Source: Bacteroidota bacterium
GTDB taxonomy: Bacteria > Bacteroidota > Bacteroidia > Palsa-948
Assembly: GCA_016195025.1 (NCBI GenBank)
Contig: JACQAL010000053.1
Span: 1 to 37,400 of the forward strand
DNA: 37,400 nt
Reading direction: 5' to 3'
Shown piece by piece: positions 2,059 through 37,400 of this stretch (position 1 is its first letter; every line of letters starts with the position of its first letter). The position numbers were made by a program, and so were the translations under genes. The notes beneath the pieces are model-generated. The model made no database searches and was not told the origin of the DNA. It saw only the letters and a program-made list of their open reading frames with translations.

Positions 2059-2271
2059 ATGCAAAAATTAATGGGAGCAATAATAAAACAGGAGCGCCAA
2101 TCAAATAAACTTTCACAACAACACATAGCCGATAAAATGAAATGTTCCGTAAAATATGTATCGCATGTGGAGAACGGGCGCAAGAATATTACGGCTGCGG
2201 TGTTCGAAGATTTTCTGGTGGCAAGCGGCTCAGACAAAAAAAATATTTTTCACCCGCGATTTACTAGTTGA
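2059..2271 (+). CDS. XRE-family helix-turn-helix regulator (module A)
   Basis: This small 70-residue protein is almost entirely one Cro/C1-type HTH. The visible features are IIKQERQSNKLSQQHIADKM (helices 1-2), then KYVSHVENGRKNIT (recognition helix and following loop) and VFEDFLVASG. It probably binds DNA as a dimer. It lies 43 bases upstream of a 242-residue helical/FN3 protein and of a tandem array, in the same orientation. A second XRE gene at 36385 has the same neighbours in the same order. The target is unknown; plausible sites are its own promoter or the nearby tandem repeats, which is inference only. Confidence 0.85.
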   Translation: MQKLMGAIIKQERQSNKLSQQHIADKMKCSVKYVSHVENGRKNITAAVFEDFLVASGSDKKNIFHPRFTS

Positions 2272-2314
2272 CATTAAACAGTAAACTTTAAACCATACAC
2301 ACTAAACCATTCCT

Positions 2315-3043
2315 ATGAAACGTCCCTTTTTAGCCGTGATGCACTGCACCCCGGTGCAGTTCGACCTGTTGCTGAAATTGCTTAACAAGGTAATTACGCA
2401 CCTCACCGATAATGCCGGTATCTTTACCGCACCTGACCCCACTGTGGCTGCTTTGCAAGCCGAGGTAAGCCCCCTTGAAAAAGCCATTGCCGCTGCTAAA
2501 AAAGGCGGCACCGAAGCCACCGAAGCCCGCAACAAGGAAGCGCTGAAGGTGCACGGCATGCTCAAAGAGGAACTTGCCTATGTGAACAAGGTGGCAAAAA
2601 ACGACAAGGACACCATTCTGCTTTCGGGTTTTGACGCCAGCAATGAGCCCTCGCCCACCGAAGTGCCCGATGCGCCCGTCATTAAACGGATTGAAGATGG
2701 CGACTCGCCCGGCACCGCAAAAATTTTTCTGGCGAAAATTACCAGCCAGCTGCTCTCCACCAAGCAGAAACTGACCTTCATTGTGCAACTCACCACGGAC
2801 GATTCTGACGAAGATAGTTTCAAAATAGTTTTGATGACAAGCAATTCAAAAAAACTGGTTATCCCCAATCTCCTTCGCGGGCAGGAAGTGTTCATACGCC
2901 TATCGGCAATGAACGCTCACGGGCAGAGCGACTGGAGCACCGTTACTCCTTTCATTGCAAGAACAGGCACATCTGAGAAAAAGAAACCCTTTCCCCCGCC
3001 ACCGCCACCGCCACCGCCTCCTCCGCCTCCGCCAGCCCCGTAA
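2315..3043 (+). CDS. Helical + fibronectin III-like protein with poly-proline tail (module A)
   Basis: I do not recognise a characterised protein. The 242 residues have no signal peptide. The N-terminal ~115 residues look like a helical bundle (LLLKLLNKVITHLTDNAG, then IFTAPDPTVAALQAEV and AKKGGTEATEARNKE). The remainder resembles a fibronectin III fold, with VIPNLLRGQEVFIRLSAM and HGQSDWS at about 187-212, which is a typical 'G/F strand' pattern. The C-terminus is a run of about 14 prolines ending in AP. The layout matches the 201-residue protein at 36657: helical bundle, F/DITxPxP-type motif, a polar KGG/AQG turn, then a beta region. Both follow an XRE gene and precede a tandem array. Family resemblance is my reading; function is unknown. 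Confidence 0.75.
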   Translation: MKRPFLAVMHCTPVQFDLLLKLLNKVITHLTDNAGIFTAPDPTVAALQAEVSPLEKAIAAAKKGGTEATEARNKEALKVHGMLKEELAYVNKVAKNDKDTILLSGFDASNEPSPTEVPDAPVIKRIEDGDSPGTAKIFLAKITSQLLSTKQKLTFIVQLTTDDSDEDSFKIVLMTSNSKKLVIPNLLRGQEVFIRLSAMNAHGQSDWSTVTPFIARTGTSEKKKPFPPPPPPPPPPPPPPAP

Positions 3044-3146
3044 GAGTACGGATAACGAAAAGTTCGAATCTACGAATGAATGCAAGGGCGATTGCTATTC
3101 GAAAATTCAGTATCCTTCATTGACGTTGGGTTCTGCCAAAGCAATT

Positions 3147-3419
3147 TTGCGGCATACTAAAGCCGGGTGGGCATATACTAAACTAAAATTGTGATATACT
3201 AAAATCGCTTTGTGATGTACTTAAGCCGCTTTGTGATATACCAAACTCGCTTTGTGGCATACTTAAGCCGCTCTATGGCATCTTAAACCGCTTTGTGGTA
3301 TACTTAAAGTCGGCTTGTGGTATACTTAAGTCGGTTTGTGGTATACTAAAGCCGCTTTGTGATATACCAAAGTCGTTTTGTGGTATACTTAAGTCGGCTT
3401 GTGAAGGGCATTTTCAGGT
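3147..3419. repeat. Tandem array, 21-bp period, TTGTGGTATACTTAAG core
   Basis: About thirteen degenerate copies follow one another. Unit starts can be placed at 3147, 3168, 3189, 3210, 3231, 3252, 3273, 3293, 3315, 3336, 3357, 3378 and 3399, so the spacing is 21 bp with one 20/22 slip. The conserved core is TTGTGGTATACTTAAG, followed by a TCGGC or CCGCT box. No credible reading frame covers the array. It fills most of the 443-bp gap between the helical/FN3 gene and the convergent ppiD-like gene. The 3044-3146 stretch before it holds nothing I recognise. Confidence 0.9.
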
Positions 3420-16723: not shown

Positions 16724-16741
16724 GTTTTAGCGGCTCCGCAG

Positions 16742-16951
16742 CAGGTCTGCGGAATTGCTCCGCAGGTCTTTTCTCGGACTGCTCAGGTCTGCGGAATTGC
16801 TCCGCAGGTCTTTTCTTGGGCTGAGCAGGTCTGCAGAATTGTTCCGCAGGTCTTTTCTTGGGCTGAGCAGGTCTGCAGAATTGTTCCGCAGGTCTTTTCT
16901 TGGGCTGAGCAGGTCTGCGGAATTACTTCGCAGGGGTTTTTATGGATTAAG
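16742..16951. repeat. Tandem array, ten 21-bp units starting CAGGTCT
   Basis: CAGGTCT recurs at 16742, 16763, 16784, 16805, 16826, 16847, 16868, 16889 and 16910; a CAGGGGT variant begins at 16931. Odd and even units differ (TGCGGAATTGCTCCG against TTTTCTTGGGCTGAG), so the array is also a 42-bp dimer repeat. The open frame over it is a heptad-repeat artefact of the 21-bp period. The 16952-17043 spacer has two more 21-bp-spaced TTCTGCG words near 17000-17035. Confidence 0.9.
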
Positions 16952-17043: not shown

Positions 17044-17295
17044 TTCTTCCCGTCAACTTGCAATTTCTTCCCGTGAGGTTGCAACTACAGTCCGGGAAGT
17101 TGCAACTTCTTCCCGTGCGGTTGCAACATTTTCCCGTGAAGTTGCAATTTATTTCCCTAAGGTTGCAATTTCTTCCCGTGAGGTTGCAACTACAGTCCGG
17201 GAAGTTGCAACTTCTTCCCGTGCGGTTGCAATTTATTTCCCTAAGGTTGCAATTTCTTCCCGTGAGGTTGCAACTACAGTCCCGGAAGTTGCAAC
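17044..17295. repeat. Tandem array, twelve exact 21-bp units with GTTGCAA
   Basis: Twelve units of exactly 21 bp run without a slip. Most read TTCTTCCCGT, four variable bases, then TTGCAAY. Unit types recur in order (a TTCTTCCCGTGAGG unit, then TACAGTCCGG, then TTCTTCCCGTGCGG), so blocks of units were copied together. The heptad reading frame across it is not a credible gene. Bases 17296-17551 hold no gene. Confidence 0.92.
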
Positions 17296-17464
17296 GTTAT
17301 GCCGCGAGCAGATAACCTGGCTTGGCGCGCTCCTCTCTTTTACGCTTAAACAGGCAACCTTAAGTATTAACGTGAGTTTTGCTTAAGGACTTCATTATTG
17401 AATGAGATTCCTCATTTCGCTTCGCTCCATTCGGAATGACATCTTTAATTTTTATAGGGAGAGA

Positions 17465-17489
17465 AGCGGGCGCGCAGAGCGCGCCCGCT
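17465..17489. repeat. Perfect 11-bp GC-rich hairpin
   Basis: AGCGGGCGCGC and GCGCGCCCGCT pair perfectly around AGA, about 60 bases before the anchor-B paralogue 3 start. Next to it (17400-17445) is an ATGAGATTCCTCATTTCGCT word of a dispersed repeat. Confidence 0.7.
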
Positions 17490-17551
17490 CCCAATCTTGC
17501 ATTTATCCGCGCAAATTCTTTCCTTTGGCAACTCAATTAAAAAAAATATTT

Positions 17552-19972
17552 ATGAAAAAACTTTTACTTGCTTCTTTATTCTTCATTCTGGCTTCTGCCT
17601 TTCTTCATGCACAGAATGTAAACGTAACCCTTGCTTCCACCTACACTTATTCCACAGGCACCATTGCAAACATTTGCGGATGGAAAAGCCCTTCCACCGG
17701 AAAAGAATATGCGCTGGTGGGCGCGCACACCGGCTTATCCATTGTGGATGTAACCAATCCTTCTTCGCCCGTGCAGGCGGCTTTTGTTGCAGGACCTTCC
17801 TGCCTCTGGCGCGAAATCAAAACCTACCGCAACTATGCATACGTTACCAGCGAATGCGGAACGGTGGGCTTGCAGATTGTTGATATGACAAATCTTCCTG
17901 CGGTTTCAACCGCTTCGTGGGCGCCCACCATTAACGCCACCAAACTTCAAACCATTCATGCGCTTCATATTGATACGGCAAAAGGAAAAGTTTATCTCTT
18001 CGGAAGCAACGTGGGAAACCAGGGCGCCATTATTGCCGATATAAAAACAAATCCCATGGCGCCTGTTTACAAAGGAAGTTATGACAACCGCTATATTCAC
18101 GATGGCTACGCGCGCAACGATACGCTCTATGCCTGCCACATTTACCAGGGCGATTGTGAAGTGGTGAACTGCACCAACCCCGCTGCAGGAGTTTCGCTTG
18201 CCGATTGGAACACGCCCAACAACTTCACGCATAATTCCTGGCTGAACGCAAGCAGCAAAGCCATTTTCACCACCGATGAAACCGCAAATTCTTTTCTCAC
18301 TTCCTACGACCTTTCCAATCTCAGCAACGTGGTGGAACTCGACCGCATTCAATCCAACCCCGGAAGCAATTCCGATGTGCACAACACGCAAATCATGCAG
18401 AAGAACGGAGGAGAGTATGCAGTTACTTCGTGGTATAATGACGGCTTCACCATTGTGGATGTTACGCGCCCGAATAATATGGTTCAGGTAGGAAATTACG
18501 ATACCGCTCCCACTGTTTCCGGCTCAGGCGAAGACCACGACTGGGGAGTGTATCCGTTTCTTCCTTCGGGAACCATTGTGGCTTCCGATATGGAGAACGG
18601 CTTGTTTGTTTGCTCGCCCACCTATCTGCGCGCCTGTTATCTGGAAGGAATGGTTACCGACTGCAATACCGGCAATCCTATTGTCAACGCTACCGTTACC
18701 ATTACAAATCCTCCTGCGGCAAATATAAACTCAGCCACCGATTTTACCGATGCCTTGGGAAAATACGGAGTGGGAGTTCTTCCTGCTGGAACCTACACGG
18801 TGGTTGTTTCCAAGCAAGCATACACATCGCAAACTTTCACCGTGTCATTAACTTCAGGAAATGTTACCACACTGAATGTTCAACTCTGCGCAACCACTCC
18901 GCCTTTTCCTTACTCAGGTCATGTATGTGACAATGCCACTTCAAATGGAATTGCCGGAGTGCACGTTCACATGGTAGATAATACTATTGTGTGGGATACG
19001 ATTACCGATGTAAACGGAAACTTTAACTTTCCGAGTTTCCTTGCAGGAACCTATGATATTATTGTGGGCGAGTGGGGTTATATTACAAAATGCTTGAGCG
19101 GTCAGGGAATAAATGCAACGAGCAATCCGCTGAACATTTGTCTCGACAAAGGCATTTACGATGACTTCAGTTTTGATTTCGGCTGGGTTGTTTCAGGAAC
19201 CTGCGTGAATGCATGGGTAAGAGATGTTCCGATTGGAACGTATGATACAGGAAACGGCAATGCAACCGCAAACCCCGATAAAGATGTGCAGAACGATTGC
19301 TCCGACCAATGTTACGTTACCGATAACGGAGGAGGTGCTGCCTACGACCACGATGTGGATCCGCCCGGCTACACCATTCTCACTTCGCCTGTGTTTGACC
19401 CAACAGCAATGACAATGCCGGTGGTGAGTTACTCGCGCTGGTGGTACGATGCCATGCTCAACAGCAATCCTCCGAATGACACCATGGAAGTTTATATTAC
19501 AAACGGAACCAATACGGTTTTGCTTGAACGGTTGCTGAAAGGAAATTCTTCCAGCGTGTGGGTGAACAAAAAGTTTGTGATATCAAATTATGTTACTCCC
19601 ACTGCCACAACAAAAATCTGGATGCGCACTTCTGATGCTTCTCCCGGTTCCATTGTGGAAGGAGGAATGGATTTGTTTTATGTCTATGATTCTGCAGCGG
19701 TGGGCGTGAGTGAGCCGACTTTTTCCGCTGATGTGAAAGTTTATCCCAATCCATCGGCTGACAAAAAGTTTACAGTTTCATGTTTCGGGTTTCAGGTTGA
19801 AGAAATTGAAGTTTACAATGTGTTTGGCGAAAAAGTGTATTCAGCCATTCAGCCATCTAACCATTCAATCATTACTATTTCTCTCCCTTTAGGGACGGGG
19901 TCTGGAATTTACTTTTACAAATTAATTTCTGCAGACGGCAAAGTGCGAACAGGCAAGTTAATGATAGAGTAG
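17552..19972 (+). CDS. Choice-of-anchor B family T9SS cargo protein (paralogue 3)
   Basis: I place the start at the ATG that opens a signal peptide (MKKLLLASLFFILASAFLHA) rather than further upstream, where the frame merely stays open through repeat sequence. The 807-residue product has the same order as paralogue 1: anchor-B region (GLSIVDVTNPSSP, GFTIVDVTRPNN, GEDHDWGVYPFLPSG), two regulatory-like beta domains, a jelly-roll region (SPVFDPTAMTMPVVSYSRWW), and a T9SS sorting domain (VYPNPSADKKFTV, GIYFYKL). Large stretches are nearly identical to paralogue 1, implying recent duplication. The sorting-domain linker (QPSNHSIITISLPLGTG) again contains repeat-derived sequence. Confidence 0.88.
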   Translation: MKKLLLASLFFILASAFLHAQNVNVTLASTYTYSTGTIANICGWKSPSTGKEYALVGAHTGLSIVDVTNPSSPVQAAFVAGPSCLWREIKTYRNYAYVTSECGTVGLQIVDMTNLPAVSTASWAPTINATKLQTIHALHIDTAKGKVYLFGSNVGNQGAIIADIKTNPMAPVYKGSYDNRYIHDGYARNDTLYACHIYQGDCEVVNCTNPAAGVSLADWNTPNNFTHNSWLNASSKAIFTTDETANSFLTSYDLSNLSNVVELDRIQSNPGSNSDVHNTQIMQKNGGEYAVTSWYNDGFTIVDVTRPNNMVQVGNYDTAPTVSGSGEDHDWGVYPFLPSGTIVASDMENGLFVCSPTYLRACYLEGMVTDCNTGNPIVNATVTITNPPAANINSATDFTDALGKYGVGVLPAGTYTVVVSKQAYTSQTFTVSLTSGNVTTLNVQLCATTPPFPYSGHVCDNATSNGIAGVHVHMVDNTIVWDTITDVNGNFNFPSFLAGTYDIIVGEWGYITKCLSGQGINATSNPLNICLDKGIYDDFSFDFGWVVSGTCVNAWVRDVPIGTYDTGNGNATANPDKDVQNDCSDQCYVTDNGGGAAYDHDVDPPGYTILTSPVFDPTAMTMPVVSYSRWWYDAMLNSNPPNDTMEVYITNGTNTVLLERLLKGNSSSVWVNKKFVISNYVTPTATTKIWMRTSDASPGSIVEGGMDLFYVYDSAAVGVSEPTFSADVKVYPNPSADKKFTVSCFGFQVEEIEVYNVFGEKVYSAIQPSNHSIITISLPLGTGSGIYFYKLISADGKVRTGKLMIE

Positions 19973-30221: not shown

Positions 30222-31058
30222 TTATTTTTCGTCTGTGAACAAGTCAACTGTCTGCGAAATTGTCTTGCCATTTTGCTGAAAATATTTAAGTCGGTGTTCG
30301 TGTCTGATTTTTCCGTTGTTGTCTAAACGCTCTAATATCATTTGGTAGTAGTTGGGGTGAAGTTCGCAACTGATAAAATTTCTTTTTAAGTTTTTGCACA
30401 ACATAAGTTCCGAGCCACTACCACCGAAGAGAATAAATACATCGTCATTCTTTTGAGTGCAAGATTTTATAAGCATTTCAACAAGTCCTAAAGGAATTTG
30501 GCAGGAATGAAAAGTTTTGTCTTTAGAAACATTTTTTACAAGGTCAAAATAAAACCAACTGTATGGCATTCGCCCTTTGTGTCCATCAGCAATTCGCCCT
30601 TGTATCCGTTTGTCTGTCGGGTTTTGATATGGAACTGCAATATTGTCTTTGTAAAAAGAATTGTCTTTACTTTTTGTAGCGTGAAGAATAGAGCGATGAG
30701 CAGTTGTCAATCGTTTGGGGCTGTGTCCGACATTTGTGTTATATGTCCAAACATAATCTTGCACATTTGAAGCGTTGTCGTCTAAAAATTTTACTCTCAA
30801 GTGAGCATTCTGTTTTGGGTAATTCATCATAAATAAATTACCAGTCGGCTTTAACACACGCATACTTTCTTTCGTCAGTTCAATATACCAGTCAATATAT
30901 TCATTCCATTTCGTAGTGTAATTTTTTCCCGCATAATTAATTCCAACATTGTAATCAGGATCACCATAAACCATATCCAAGCTGCCGTCAGGCAGTTTTT
31001 TTAGAACTTGTAAAACATCTTCATTAAAGATTTTATTTCTGAATTTATCTATGCTCAT
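30222..31058 (-). CDS. DNA methyltransferase, beta-class (N6-adenine or N4-cytosine)
   Basis: The 278-residue enzyme has motif IV as DPDYN (residues 33-37) near the N-terminus and motif I-like FGGSGSE (about 211-217) near the C-terminus, with HSCQIPL before it in place of the usual HPTQKP. This order is the beta class. DPDY is a variant of the more common DPPY/SPPY, so the methylated base is uncertain. It starts four bases downstream of the stop of a PD-(D/E)XK nuclease gene on the same strand, forming a type II restriction-modification pair. The stop is followed by the repeat cluster. Confidence 0.88.
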   Translation of the reverse strand: MSIDKFRNKIFNEDVLQVLKKLPDGSLDMVYGDPDYNVGINYAGKNYTTKWNEYIDWYIELTKESMRVLKPTGNLFMMNYPKQNAHLRVKFLDDNASNVQDYVWTYNTNVGHSPKRLTTAHRSILHATKSKDNSFYKDNIAVPYQNPTDKRIQGRIADGHKGRMPYSWFYFDLVKNVSKDKTFHSCQIPLGLVEMLIKSCTQKNDDVFILFGGSGSELMLCKNLKRNFISCELHPNYYQMILERLDNNGKIRHEHRLKYFQQNGKTISQTVDLFTDEK

Positions 31059-31062
31059 GCTA

Positions 31063-31899
31063 TTAGTTTTGATGGATTAATTTGTATGATGCTGACTTGA
31101 TAAACTTGATTGTAGTGATGTCAAGAGGATTTGAAAAAGTGTAAGCCCAAAGTTTTATCGTATCGTGAGTTTTTGATTTTTCGCGAACAACATAAACGCA
31201 AAAGATTTCTTTTATTTTTCCTTTGAGTTCCGTTTTCTTATTTGCGTTGAAGTAGTAAAGAAACGGATGATAAATTTGGTAGATAGAAAAATTGTCGGGC
31301 TTCCCATTTTTGCCTTCAAACACTCCGATTGTTCCTTGTAGTTCTATTGTTAAATCAACTTCAATCTGAATGTTTTTCATTTCAAGTTTTGCGTCCTTAC
31401 CAAATGAATATTCAAAACTTGTTTTTGTTCTGTGAGGGAAATAGGTTTTTGGTCGCTTTATAATATCTACATCTTCAAATTCTTTGTCTTGGTTGAAAAG
31501 AAAATGATGAAGTATTCTTTGGTTGTTAGCAACGGAAAGAATATTACTCTCGCTGGAATTGTATTGATTTAATAAACTTCGTTTGTAATTCCAATCAATA
31601 GTTTTTTGTATTGGCTCAAAGTTGTGAAATACTTTGTCAATGCCTTTGATAAACTTGTGCTTTCCGCTACCAATGTGAATTATAGCGTAATCATTTTTTA
31701 CAAGAATGTCGGGAAGTTTGGTTTTGTTGTCAAGTTTTGTAACATCAAAAGGATTTCCGAAACCAATTTTTTTGCAAACATCTTTTACTAAGTCATTGTG
31801 AAAAACAAAATTGTCTTTGCGTTTGCAAATTTTAAATAGTTCCTCAATTACTCGGTCTTTCTTGCTCTCTCTGAATTTTTTTGTTTTCTTTTTCGTCAC
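31063..31899 (-). CDS. Probable type II restriction endonuclease, PD-(D/E)XK fold
   Basis: The 278-residue protein has IQIEVD (D182) and FEGKNGKPDNFSIYQIYHPF, with E195 and K197 giving a D-x12-E-x-K PD-(D/E)XK core. It is basic and AT-rich coded. Its gene immediately precedes the methyltransferase gene, so the pair cleaves unmethylated and protects methylated DNA. The nuclease comes first in the operon. A TACATTTG -7 element lies on the minus strand 15 bases upstream of the start. Recognition site unknown. Naming rests on the motif and the neighbour. Confidence 0.8.
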   Translation of the reverse strand: MTKKKTKKFRESKKDRVIEELFKICKRKDNFVFHNDLVKDVCKKIGFGNPFDVTKLDNKTKLPDILVKNDYAIIHIGSGKHKFIKGIDKVFHNFEPIQKTIDWNYKRSLLNQYNSSESNILSVANNQRILHHFLFNQDKEFEDVDIIKRPKTYFPHRTKTSFEYSFGKDAKLEMKNIQIEVDLTIELQGTIGVFEGKNGKPDNFSIYQIYHPFLYYFNANKKTELKGKIKEIFCVYVVREKSKTHDTIKLWAYTFSNPLDITTIKFIKSASYKLIHQN

Positions 31900-34146: not shown

Positions 34147-35940
34147 TTATGATTCTAATTCATTCATAAATAAATTTAGCCACATGTCCGCAATTTCTGT
34201 ATTGTTAAAAATATATGAGGGCTTCTTTTTATCCCCCCAAACATTTTGATGATCTTCATTAATCCCAAAGTCATATTCATAGCTTTGAGAAACTGTCCAA
34301 CTTTCTGTTGGAAGAGGAATAGTATCTAATTGAGTCCATTTTTTTATAGCGACTTTAAGGGAAGAATCTGTCAATGAATTACCATATTTTATTCTCCATT
34401 CAAAAATCAAAACCAAACCTTCATAAATTATATTAATCAAATTTGAATTTCTTTGATTATGTCTTATTTGATATTTCTTATCCTCTAGTGAATTAATTTT
34501 ATCAGTTAAAATGTTGTAAAGATCCGCAACAAATTTTTTTGAATCATCCATTGCATAACTATCTGGCATAAAATATCCTCTTTTATATTCTTCAAATTCT
34601 TTTTTCTTCTTAATTATCTGTGCTCTTTTTTCAATCGTCATTTTTTCCGGGGGCGGAACAGCCATTGGGAAATCATTTTTTTCTGTTACTTCTTCTATAA
34701 ATTGAAAATTCGCATCTCTTCCCGAAATCCATCCATTCAATAAATGACCATTTTCATTGATAATATTTGTAATGTTATTTGCAATGTGAAGTTTAATATC
34801 TTTCTCATCATCAAAAAAGGCACAAATACTTTTTTGAACATATTTTTTGAAGGCATCATACTTGTCTGTATTATTTACTTCTATCGCATCTTTTTCTCCT
34901 AAATCCTTGACTTTATTTTTTAATGCTTCATCTTTAATAATAATAGCAAAGGGAAATTTATTTTTTTCAAGTGCGTAACGATATTCAATTTCAGTATAAC
35001 TTTTACCAGATTCTTCGTGAATTGAACCGTATCTCCCACCTAATATTAATATATAGAGGTCGGATTCATCAATCCATTTTTGGATAGTTTCCAAAGTTTC
35101 TTTTCCTGCTTTAAAAAGTTCCATTCCTGCGGGAATATGCCCTGCTTTTAGTATTGCTTCAACAGCTGCTTCTCTTTCTTTTTTCAAATCAGTAAAAGTC
35201 GAAGAAATAAAAATTTGATATTTCTTTTTCAATGTTGTCTGAAATGTTTTTAATTCTTCACTGGGAGATTGCATTTCCAATTCTCTGATAAAACCATTAA
35301 GCATGTTTTCAAATCTTGTTCGTTCGCCACCGCTAAAATTATGTATGTTAGAAATAATTCTTAGTTTCTTCAAATTAATTTCCTCGTTTGGAAATATTTT
35401 TTTGAGGAGTCGTTCTGTAGTGAAAATCCACGAAGCCGCATCGCATTCTGATTGCTTTAATAAAGTTAATTGAACATTTATTGCTTCAATCTTATAATTA
35501 GAATCAGGTTCTATTTTATTATTTTTTTTAGATTCATTTTTGCTGATACCATTATTCCCTTCAATCCATTCTTCAGTTAATTCGATATATGTTTCTTTAT
35601 TTTTTTGTTTTCTAATTAAGGGTAGAACTACATATTTAATTTGCTTAATAAATTTTTCTTTGTTACCCTTATATTCATTCACATAATAATTCAAATGAAA
35701 ATCCAGTAACTTATTTATTTCATAAGGTGGTTTAATGGAAGTCAACTTATTTGTAAAACTTCTGTCATAATGCTCATCTGTTGTTTTTGTATAGATGGTT
35801 TCAGATTTATTATTTTTTTCTCCCCACATGGAAGAAGTCTTTCCAAATGTCATAAAATGTGTTTGCACACCTAAGTTTTTTAGCTGATAAGAATTAATAG
35901 GTTCTTTATTTTCTTCACTTATTGAGTAAAATTCATTCAT
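34147..35940 (-). CDS. DUF4062-domain protein with unassigned N- and C-terminal regions
   Basis: The 597-residue protein has a clear DUF4062 core at about 240-335: YQIFISSTFTDLKKEREA, then GMELFKAGKETLETIQKWID, LYILILGGRYGS and SYTEIEYRYALEK. DUF4062 resembles TIR-type folds and is frequent in NLR-like and other defence proteins. The N-terminal 235 residues and the C-terminal 170 residues match nothing I recognise; the C-terminal region is helical with a charged coil (EKRAQIIKKKKEFEEYKRGY). It is the largest gene of the accessory block, immediately after a repeat copy. A role in anti-phage defence is inference. Confidence 0.78.
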   Translation of the reverse strand: MNEFYSISEENKEPINSYQLKNLGVQTHFMTFGKTSSMWGEKNNKSETIYTKTTDEHYDRSFTNKLTSIKPPYEINKLLDFHLNYYVNEYKGNKEKFIKQIKYVVLPLIRKQKNKETYIELTEEWIEGNNGISKNESKKNNKIEPDSNYKIEAINVQLTLLKQSECDAASWIFTTERLLKKIFPNEEINLKKLRIISNIHNFSGGERTRFENMLNGFIRELEMQSPSEELKTFQTTLKKKYQIFISSTFTDLKKEREAAVEAILKAGHIPAGMELFKAGKETLETIQKWIDESDLYILILGGRYGSIHEESGKSYTEIEYRYALEKNKFPFAIIIKDEALKNKVKDLGEKDAIEVNNTDKYDAFKKYVQKSICAFFDDEKDIKLHIANNITNIINENGHLLNGWISGRDANFQFIEEVTEKNDFPMAVPPPEKMTIEKRAQIIKKKKEFEEYKRGYFMPDSYAMDDSKKFVADLYNILTDKINSLEDKKYQIRHNQRNSNLINIIYEGLVLIFEWRIKYGNSLTDSSLKVAIKKWTQLDTIPLPTESWTVSQSYEYDFGINEDHQNVWGDKKKPSYIFNNTEIADMWLNLFMNELES

Positions 35941-36384: not shown

Positions 36385-36630
36385 ATGGAAGATGCAGAGC
36401 GAAAGATAGAAATGGAAAGGATACTGGAAGAATTATCGGAAACACTTACAAAACTTATGAAAGAAGAAAAAATAAATCAGGACGGTTTAGCGGCTAAAAC
36501 AAAATTTACTCCGGGTTATATCAGCCAATTCATAAACAAAAAATGCAGCAACCCGAAAATAGAATCGTTAGTAGAACTTGCCGCAGGATTTAACCGTAGA
36601 ATAAAAATAACTTTTGAACCTGTCAACTAA
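36385..36630 (+). CDS. XRE-family helix-turn-helix regulator (module B)
   Basis: The 81-residue protein has an N-terminal charged helix, then an HTH: LMKEEKINQDGLAAKTKFTP, YISQFINKKCSNPKIESLV and ELAAGFNRRIKITF. The DNA-recognition helix is around TPGYISQFINKK. It is followed after 26 bases by a 201-residue helical protein and then a tandem array, the same order as at 2059-3419. It is 11 residues longer than the module A XRE, and its sequence is only distantly related. Confidence 0.85.
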   Translation: MEDAERKIEMERILEELSETLTKLMKEEKINQDGLAAKTKFTPGYISQFINKKCSNPKIESLVELAAGFNRRIKITFEPVN

Positions 36631-36656
36631 TAACCATCCCCTAAAATTAAATCTCT

Positions 36657-37262
36657 ATGAAAAAAACCACTCCCACTGCGCAGATTGCGCTCGACTTTCA
36701 GAAGTTTGACGCACCCGGCTTAATTAATTTTGGCAGCGGCATTGCCGCGGGGCTTTCAAACGACCCCGATATTACCAACCCGCCCGTGAACAGCAATACG
36801 CTTTATGCCGAAATAGGCACCGTGAACCCGCAAACGGGGCTGGCGGGCAGTTTGGCAAAACGCGCCCAGGGCGACCGTTCCGAAACCCTCACTAAACTGA
36901 TTGCCCAGCAGGCGAACACGCTTATTGAAGACCTCACCGAAGATGCCGCGCACGTGAAGGCAAGAGCGAATAAAATTGCCAATGGCGATTTGGCGCATGC
37001 GGAGCAAATCATTACCCGCATAGGGTATCACCTGAAAAAGAAAGGCGACAAACACCCGCGCAGTTTCGAAGTGGTGGAAAGCGGAACGGGCTGGGTTCAC
37101 CTGCGCGCTAAACGAACTAAAAAAACCGGCAGCGAAGGGCAGGCATGGCAATATGGAATTACCACTGCCAAGGATACGCCTCCACCAACGCTGAAAAAGC
37201 CGCGCTTCACCCTTGAAGTGGATGTGATAATTCACGACCTGCCCAGCGGTTCAATTGTCTGA
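36657..37262 (+). CDS. Helical protein with beta C-terminal part (module B paralogue)
   Basis: The 201 residues have no signal peptide. The N-terminal ~120 residues look helical, with LSNDPDITNPPVNSNTLYAE, AKRAQGDRSETLTKLI and a K-rich AHVKARANKIANGD stretch. After IITRIGYHLKKKGDKHPRS the sequence turns beta-like (FEVVESGTGWVHLRAKRTKK). The plan corresponds to the 242-residue protein at 2315: a bundle with an NP/AP turn, a KGG or AQG turn, then a beta-domain start. The fibronectin-like domain is shortened and the poly-proline tail is absent. I consider them distant paralogues; function is unknown. Confidence 0.7.
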   Translation: MKKTTPTAQIALDFQKFDAPGLINFGSGIAAGLSNDPDITNPPVNSNTLYAEIGTVNPQTGLAGSLAKRAQGDRSETLTKLIAQQANTLIEDLTEDAAHVKARANKIANGDLAHAEQIITRIGYHLKKKGDKHPRSFEVVESGTGWVHLRAKRTKKTGSEGQAWQYGITTAKDTPPPTLKKPRFTLEVDVIIHDLPSGSIV

Positions 37263-37267
37263 CCTTT

Positions 37268-37383
37268 ACTAAAATAACTATACAGTTGTGATTGGTTTTA
37301 CTGGAATAGTTATACACTATTGTTTCGTTACACGGATATGGCTATACAATTTTTGTAAAAATACTGAAATAGCTATACACCCC
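37268..37383. repeat. Degenerate tandem array, about 30-33-bp period
   Basis: Four units begin at about 37268, 37300, 37330 and 37363 with ACTAAAATAACTATACA, ACTGGAATAGTTATACA, ACACGGATATGGCTATACA and ACTGAAATAGCTATACA. The conserved core is TAGCTATACA. It starts right after the module B protein stop. It may continue beyond the window end. Confidence 0.75.
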
Positions 37384-37400
37384 TCACTAAGGTGGTTGGC

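Follow-up and report, generated by a model that had tools for sequence, protein, structure and literature searches.

Two rows of an HTH gene, an FN3-family gene and a tandem array

The window, that is, the whole stretch of DNA analysed here, corresponds to the complete contig C53 (37,400 bp) of a 3.5-Mb draft genome of an uncultured Bacteroidota, assembled in 79 contigs. It carries the following features.

2059-2271, + strand: XRE-type helix-turn-helix (HTH) gene, 70 aa (Pfam HTH_31 7.9e-8, HTH_3 1.3e-7)
2315-3043, + strand: FN3-family gene, 242 aa, encoding an N-terminal four-helix domain, a C-terminal FN3 domain and a poly-proline tail
3145-3404, no strand: array A, 21-bp units numbering about 11-12, consensus TTGTGGTATACTTAAGTCGSY (TRF and lag-21 identity)
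16740-16934, no strand: orphan array of period 42/21 (TRF score 320), no FN3-family gene beside it
17044-17295, no strand: orphan array of period 21/84, 107 bp before the LVIVD protein gene at 17402-19972
36385-36630, + strand: second XRE-like gene, 81 aa (HTH_3 22.1 bits, just below the cut-off of 23)
36657-37262, + strand: second FN3-family gene, 201 aa (family profile E about 1e-66)
37265-37390, no strand: array B, four units spaced by about 32 bp, or three helical turns, and truncated at the contig end

An earlier note on this DNA had described a row of an XRE gene, a 242-aa protein with a poly-proline tail and a tandem array, and this row (module A) was found at 2059-3404 by Pfam, open reading frame and TRF analysis. 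The XRE gene ends 44 bp ahead of the FN3-family gene. The core of array A spans 3189-3404 with a period of 21 bp (TRF score up to 262) and degenerate first units begin near 3145; the length of 270 bp given for this array is fair when the degenerate units are counted. The identity at lag 21 was 0.68, and 500 resamplings gave a null maximum of 0.41. A second copy of array A was searched for in the genome and none was found, the sequence occurring once.

The second row (module B), which had been placed at 36385-37383, is real but weaker than the first, as its XRE falls below the Pfam cut-off, its protein is shortened and its array has a period of 32 bp. Its XRE-like gene ends 27 bp before the second FN3-family gene and is near-identical to the XRE gene beside another module of this genome (L041), and alignment showed that its protein is without the C-terminal ~50 residues of its relatives. 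Array B is not of period 21; TATAC recurs at 37279, 37311, 37343, and 37374 (steps of 32, 32, and 31 bp), the best lag is 32 (p about 0.002) and the contig ends at 37400. Between the two rows, the proteins showed no similarity by pairwise BLASTP, the XREs showed no specific similarity to each other, and the array periods are 21 and 32 bp. Elsewhere in the window, the 597-aa product of 34147-35940, which has DUF4062 and weakly matches TIR, is a possible defence-type protein, and at 30222-31899 a DNA methyltransferase-like gene (DPDYNVG) adjoins a restriction-partner-like gene.

The two window proteins belong to one FN3 family

Profile searches of both proteins, as proposed in the earlier note, placed the module A and module B proteins in one common family; iterated searches seeded with either recovered the same ~24 proteins from 1.1 Mb of sampled genome. 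The whole-genome profile search gave 35 family matches in this genome; with the same approach, three congeners had 9-11 matches apiece and another three had none. The family is patchy, being present in 3 of 148 phylum-wide genomes at E<=1e-8 with the own genome counted, and it occurs in Bacteroidota, Verrucomicrobiota, and Acidobacteriota, including isolates of Limnovirga, Lacibacter, Ginsengibacter, and Sphingobacterium. Many members are found a few kb or less from the end of a contig (C1, C2, C12, C18, C23, C30, C41, C53, C57, C58, C66, C69, and C78), which suggests that the modules may break the assembly and be under-counted in draft genomes. Searches for the family among phages, plasmids, and viral contigs returned no matches, and a weak PHROG "tail protein" match covers only the FN3 part of one member.

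The AlphaFold model of the 242-aa protein (pLDDT 91.6) comprises an N-terminal four-helix domain and a C-terminal domain that matches many FN3 domains in the PDB and has the FN3 fold, which bears out the helical and FN3-like character predicted for it. Relatives within the family reach fn3 (PF00041) at E 2e-4, below Pfam's cut-off, and the four-helix domain folded alone (pLDDT 92.0) had no PDB match at E<=0.001. A conserved stretch around MTGNxNFxTPxPxL marks the family, and no signal peptide was seen in its sequences. The dN/dS was 0.25 between the 242-aa protein and its 74% identical paralog L026 and 0.03-0.06 between the Sphingobacterium orthologs, and the FN3 genes are therefore working genes. 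All pairs ranged from 0.03 to 0.31, indicating purifying selection, and positive selection was looked for in these genes and not seen.

Arrays of period 21 accompany the family across genomes

In the own genome, an array of period 21 was present within 700 bp of the gene at 22 of 24 sampled copies and always downstream, and 9 of 11 further regions had such an array too, which adjoined the gene on its downstream side in two cases and on its upstream side in seven. For other genomes, 68 named loci were found by the protein alone through one peptide pattern, and an array lay within 700 bp at 48 of them. Thus, the arrays beside homologues in other genomes, whose absence the earlier note had said would count against its reading, are present; the downstream placement did not carry over, as 46 of the 48 are upstream. 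In an autocorrelation check, lag 21 stood out at z>5 in 45 of the 68 named loci and several others peaked at lag 40, 42, or 44. The search near the genes covered only periods of about 20-22 bp and multiples of these. In an unrestricted control, the 153 kb around the genes contained 74 arrays with a period of 21n and 7 with another period, as against 17 and 19, respectively, in 717 kb elsewhere in the same loci. The 21-bp arrays are therefore about 20-fold enriched near FN3-family genes. The background rates for the own genome were estimated from sampled stretches totalling 1.125 Mb, which make up about a third of the genome and over-represent modules.

This association across many loci and genomes upholds the view of the earlier note that the row is a functional unit rather than a chance arrangement, with one part removed. 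The XRE gene is not a fixed component, as an HTH gene lies close upstream in only about 7 of the ~41 modules examined in the own genome. The fixed core of the unit is the FN3-family gene with its array, and the XRE gene is optional.

Arrays also occur apart from the FN3 family. The orphan array at 16740-16934 lies 468 bp before the gene of the LVIVD protein (17402-19972), which is T9SS-sorted. The array at 17044-17295 has a counterpart on contig C25, where an XRE-array-protein module (L218) contains an array that shares 81% identity with it over 242 bp. Other orphan arrays likewise share their unit with a distant module (L058 with the XRE-FN3 module L064, and L069 with L027). Most of the intergenic orphan arrays are upstream of a gene, several of these encoding T9SS-sorted surface proteins including that at 17402-19972, and a tie between orphan arrays and genes of T9SS-sorted proteins is a lead only. 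A second array-associated protein family, family C, with an SRIP... N-terminus, was noticed at L218 (1084-2605), L063, L080, L057, L067, and L232. Its arrays are upstream of the gene, the order at L218 being XRE, array, gene; no profile-level link to the FN3 family was found, and family C was not found in 247 genomes of the phylum searched outside this genome.

The arrays keep their frame and not their sequence

The best-fit period of 88 arrays was 21 bp in 81, 22 bp in five and 20 bp in two, and the less frequent periods were 20, 22, or 40-44 bp. The commonest length was 11 units or about 231 bp (median 233 bp), and most arrays had 11-15 units. Often the 42-bp period was stronger than the 21-bp one, meaning that units of two types alternate. 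Across 15,922 array bases, 2907 departures from the consensus were counted as against 45 bases of insertion or deletion; 67 of 81 arrays were free of indels. As a class, 65 distinct units showed dyad symmetry (best pairing 6.03 of 10 vs 5.27 in permuted units, z 10.2) and the mirror-symmetry control was not raised (z -1.6), where the permutation disregards dinucleotides and the mirror control addresses base composition only. Taken separately, the named loci showed strong dyad symmetry (z 10.0) and this genome weak symmetry (z 2.5), and tests on single arrays were mostly non-significant (p<0.05 in 15 of 88). Bending of the DNA through phased A-tracts was considered and rejected, the 10-11 bp weak/strong periodicity being absent, and so was copying of the units from chromosomal targets, for which the best matches outside the arrays (16.3) equalled the shuffled null (16.3). 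Separately, arrays of 7-bp units are common in the genus (AACCCAG x16 at L110 841-954, and many short TRF rows), and 21 is 3 x 7.

The unit sequence differs at every locus, with the similarity between loci at or near the shuffled level (mean 9.35 of 21). This holds for paralogs with 81-88% identity, whose units matched at 7 (L040/L060), 11 (L147/L150), 12 (L034/L036), and 10 (L226/L227) of 21 positions; L120/L122, with 15 matches of 21, were the more alike exception. The DNA homology between paralogs spans the gene and a short flank and ends near the array. By contrast with the paralogs, the Sphingobacterium orthologs L175/L182 retain the same array motif at a dS of 1.2, and the arrays of two species align over 345 bp, unit by unit and with no internal gap. 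Because paralogs differ, their homology stops near the array and orthologs keep their motif, the arrays seem to have been replaced at or soon after gene duplication and not eroded. Furthermore, in the Sphingobacterium arrays of TACTG-N4-CAGTA the spacers are not repeated, which together with the one-to-one alignment of orthologous units without indels suggests that the unit spacing itself is under selection.

HTH proteins as candidate binders of the arrays

An HTH gene in cis is present in the window modules and in a minority of the others, and the XRE gene lies 20-45 bp before its partner gene in several. Among the named loci outside Sphingobacterium, no HTH family recurred among the upstream neighbours except for three LuxR-type genes. 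In Sphingobacterium, the order is an HTH_17-like gene, the array, the FN3 gene, a DUF5675 gene and a gene for a small hydrophobic protein; at L175 (3312-3749) and its relatives, the DUF5675 gene and the gene of an 80-aa hydrophobic protein follow the FN3 gene, and the L175 locus directly precedes a 16S rRNA gene. The arrays of this genus carry, every 21 bp, TACTG-N4-CAGTA (four genomes), a TTTTGTACA-type motif (three genomes) or AGTTT-N5-AAACT (two genomes), and each motif class goes with its own recognition helix, namely ISDATFRNYVADE, xxDSTYRxYVKEG, and IADSTYRAYVDEG. The distance between motifs correlated with the distance between HTH_17 helices (r 0.86) and with that between FN3 proteins (r 0.76) in eight genomes, and the partial correlations with the motif were 0.69 for the HTH helix and 0.39 for the FN3 protein, in a set of 8 genomes with three motif classes and few independent changes. 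Loci with an HTH_17 gene and an array and no FN3 gene also exist. At L200/L202, a broken HTH gene with a class-1 helix lies beside a class-2 array, which fits only the intact HTH gene located elsewhere in the genome; this mismatch may be exceptional or else may point to action in trans. Going by this covariation, binding of the array by the linked HTH protein appears well supported in Sphingobacterium.

For the window, binding of the array by the linked XRE is plausible. Two observations count against such a reading of the linked proteins: the near-identical XREs of module B and L041 accompany unlike arrays, and most modules are without an adjoining HTH gene. As a further observation on neighbours, a HicA toxin gene (L027 3718-3924, E 3e-19) lies 154 bp upstream of an FN3-family module.

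A phased array of dimer sites and its alternatives

We tentatively favour, at rather less than even confidence, a model in which each array is a locus-specific and helically phased set of dimer sites that is coated by an HTH protein and controls the linked FN3 gene. Every unit would bind a dimeric protein and, as 21 bp amounts to two helical turns, the dimers are inferred to stack on one face of the DNA and to coat the array cooperatively. The binder would be an HTH protein with locus-specific recognition, HTH_17-like in Sphingobacterium and plausibly the XRE in the window, and at most other loci it would act in trans. The coated array would most likely control expression of the linked FN3 gene, given that the array is upstream in most genomes. 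This operator reading leaves the downstream arrays of the own genome unaccounted for; since the arrays of the A/B clade, module A included, are downstream, control there would need DNA looping or retention of the regulator at the array. As a guess, the FN3 protein is most likely a cytosolic partner of the complex through its four-helix domain.

An extension of this model is more doubtful, and we hold it at low confidence. Each chromosomal copy of the FN3 gene may carry its own array and specificity, renewed at duplication, such that paralogs stay orthogonal. Under such renewal, the arrays might be self-diversifying address tags for cognate DNA-binding proteins in a system that crosses phyla.

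The binder may instead be the FN3-family protein itself, acting on its own array in the manner of iteron-binding proteins with a specificity that co-evolved in each copy. No other protein is a constant neighbour of the arrays, the four-helix domain of the FN3-family protein is without a known counterpart so that DNA binding is possible, and the distance between FN3 proteins also correlates with that of the motifs in Sphingobacterium. The paralogs speak against it, as proteins with 81-88% identity go with arrays that are little or no more alike than shuffled units, and in the pairs inspected their amino-acid differences are scattered (dN/dS about 0.2-0.3) with no hypervariable recognition region. 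The drop of the FN3 correlation once the HTH helix is taken into account, and the HTH-array loci that have no FN3 gene, point the same way, and we consider self-binding unlikely.

Somewhat less probable again is that the arrays are neutral minisatellites or insertion landmarks, where cassettes duplicate into existing 21-bp arrays or slippage produces the repeats on site. That paralog homology stops near the array, that orphan arrays exist and that neighbouring genes are unrelated would all fit such an origin. Slippage alone, however, does not account for a unit held at 21 bp in three phyla, for a length of about 11 units or for the dyad symmetry, and it agrees poorly with the non-repeated spacers and the gap-free alignment of orthologous units in Sphingobacterium.

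That the arrays function at the RNA level, for instance through a repeat RNA by which the protein is neutralised or guided in the style of type III toxin-antitoxin systems, is a slimmer prospect than either of these. The layout recalls that of ToxIN in that a fixed and locus-specific array lies beside a small gene, mostly upstream. RNA stems were rejected on the sequence evidence, as broken pairs held G-U vs A-C at 53 vs 39 and compensatory changes numbered 23 vs 18 expected, with no clear excess in either, and an Rfam scan across the arrays gave no match. Moreover, the array may be on either side of the gene, the family has no link to a toxin family and the PADLOC scan for defence systems was negative. 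Finally, coding of heptad-repeat peptides on the FN3 gene strand, 21 bp being seven codons, was rejected as very improbable even though ATG-start open reading frames run through several upstream arrays, since open frames were as common in antisense (51) as in sense (47), variability was flat over codon positions 1, 2, and 3 (0.192, 0.189, and 0.189), and column-permuted arrays had similar numbers of open frames (47.6 vs 54).

Significance and comparison with known systems

In the open full-text literature, no description of this gene-plus-array unit was found, the nearest text being a paper that comments in general terms on tandem repeats between genes in Planctomycetota (PMC9426551). Within that literature, the FN3 gene with its 21-bp array looks like an undescribed gene-plus-binding-site unit and a categorically new one. 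It spans three phyla, reaches dozens of copies per genome and has neither a name nor a function in the libraries searched, and it is rare for a fixed period and a near-fixed length to be combined with a wholly free sequence. Should the arrays serve as sites for locus-specific dimers, they would make up a natural collection of orthogonal binding arrays with their readers, and the origin of new DNA specificities at gene duplication would become testable.

Type III toxin-antitoxin systems (ToxIN, CptIN, and TenpIN) have a locus-specific tandem array by a small gene, with a unit of about 35-48 nt. The present unit differs from them in its 21-bp period, in having no RNA-structure signal and in an array that may lie on either side of the gene; the modelled protein is a four-helix domain with FN3 and not the ToxN/CptN/TenpN endoribonuclease fold, and PADLOC and Pfam were negative for it. 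Unlike in CRISPR or diversity-generating elements, the units are contiguous, and neither Cas proteins nor reverse transcriptases are among the commonest neighbour families. Single-HTH XRE autoregulators and antitoxins have known operators of a few sites; several modules, those of the window included, resemble such pairs in that the XRE gene is just before its partner gene, and differ in the array of 11 units, which in the window is placed behind the partner gene. A likeness to cooperative HTH/MerR-like proteins of the BldC/Xis type is seen in Sphingobacterium, where an HTH_17-like gene directly precedes the repeated sites, but here the sites are palindromic, 21 bp apart and up to about 15 units in number, and the HTH gene is absent at most loci.

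The iterons of plasmid origins are direct repeats spaced about 21-22 bp apart on one helix face, next to a protein gene. The FN3 arrays are similar in that all 88 have a period of 20-22 bp, in a search restricted to multiples of ~20-22 bp, and they differ from iteron/Rep systems in being chromosomal and in occurring as many copies per genome with unrelated units. Pfam found no Rep domain in the FN3-family gene, which had no match in 72,556 plasmid records. None of the known systems compared takes in the unit as a member, and it works most like an extended operator or an iteron array.
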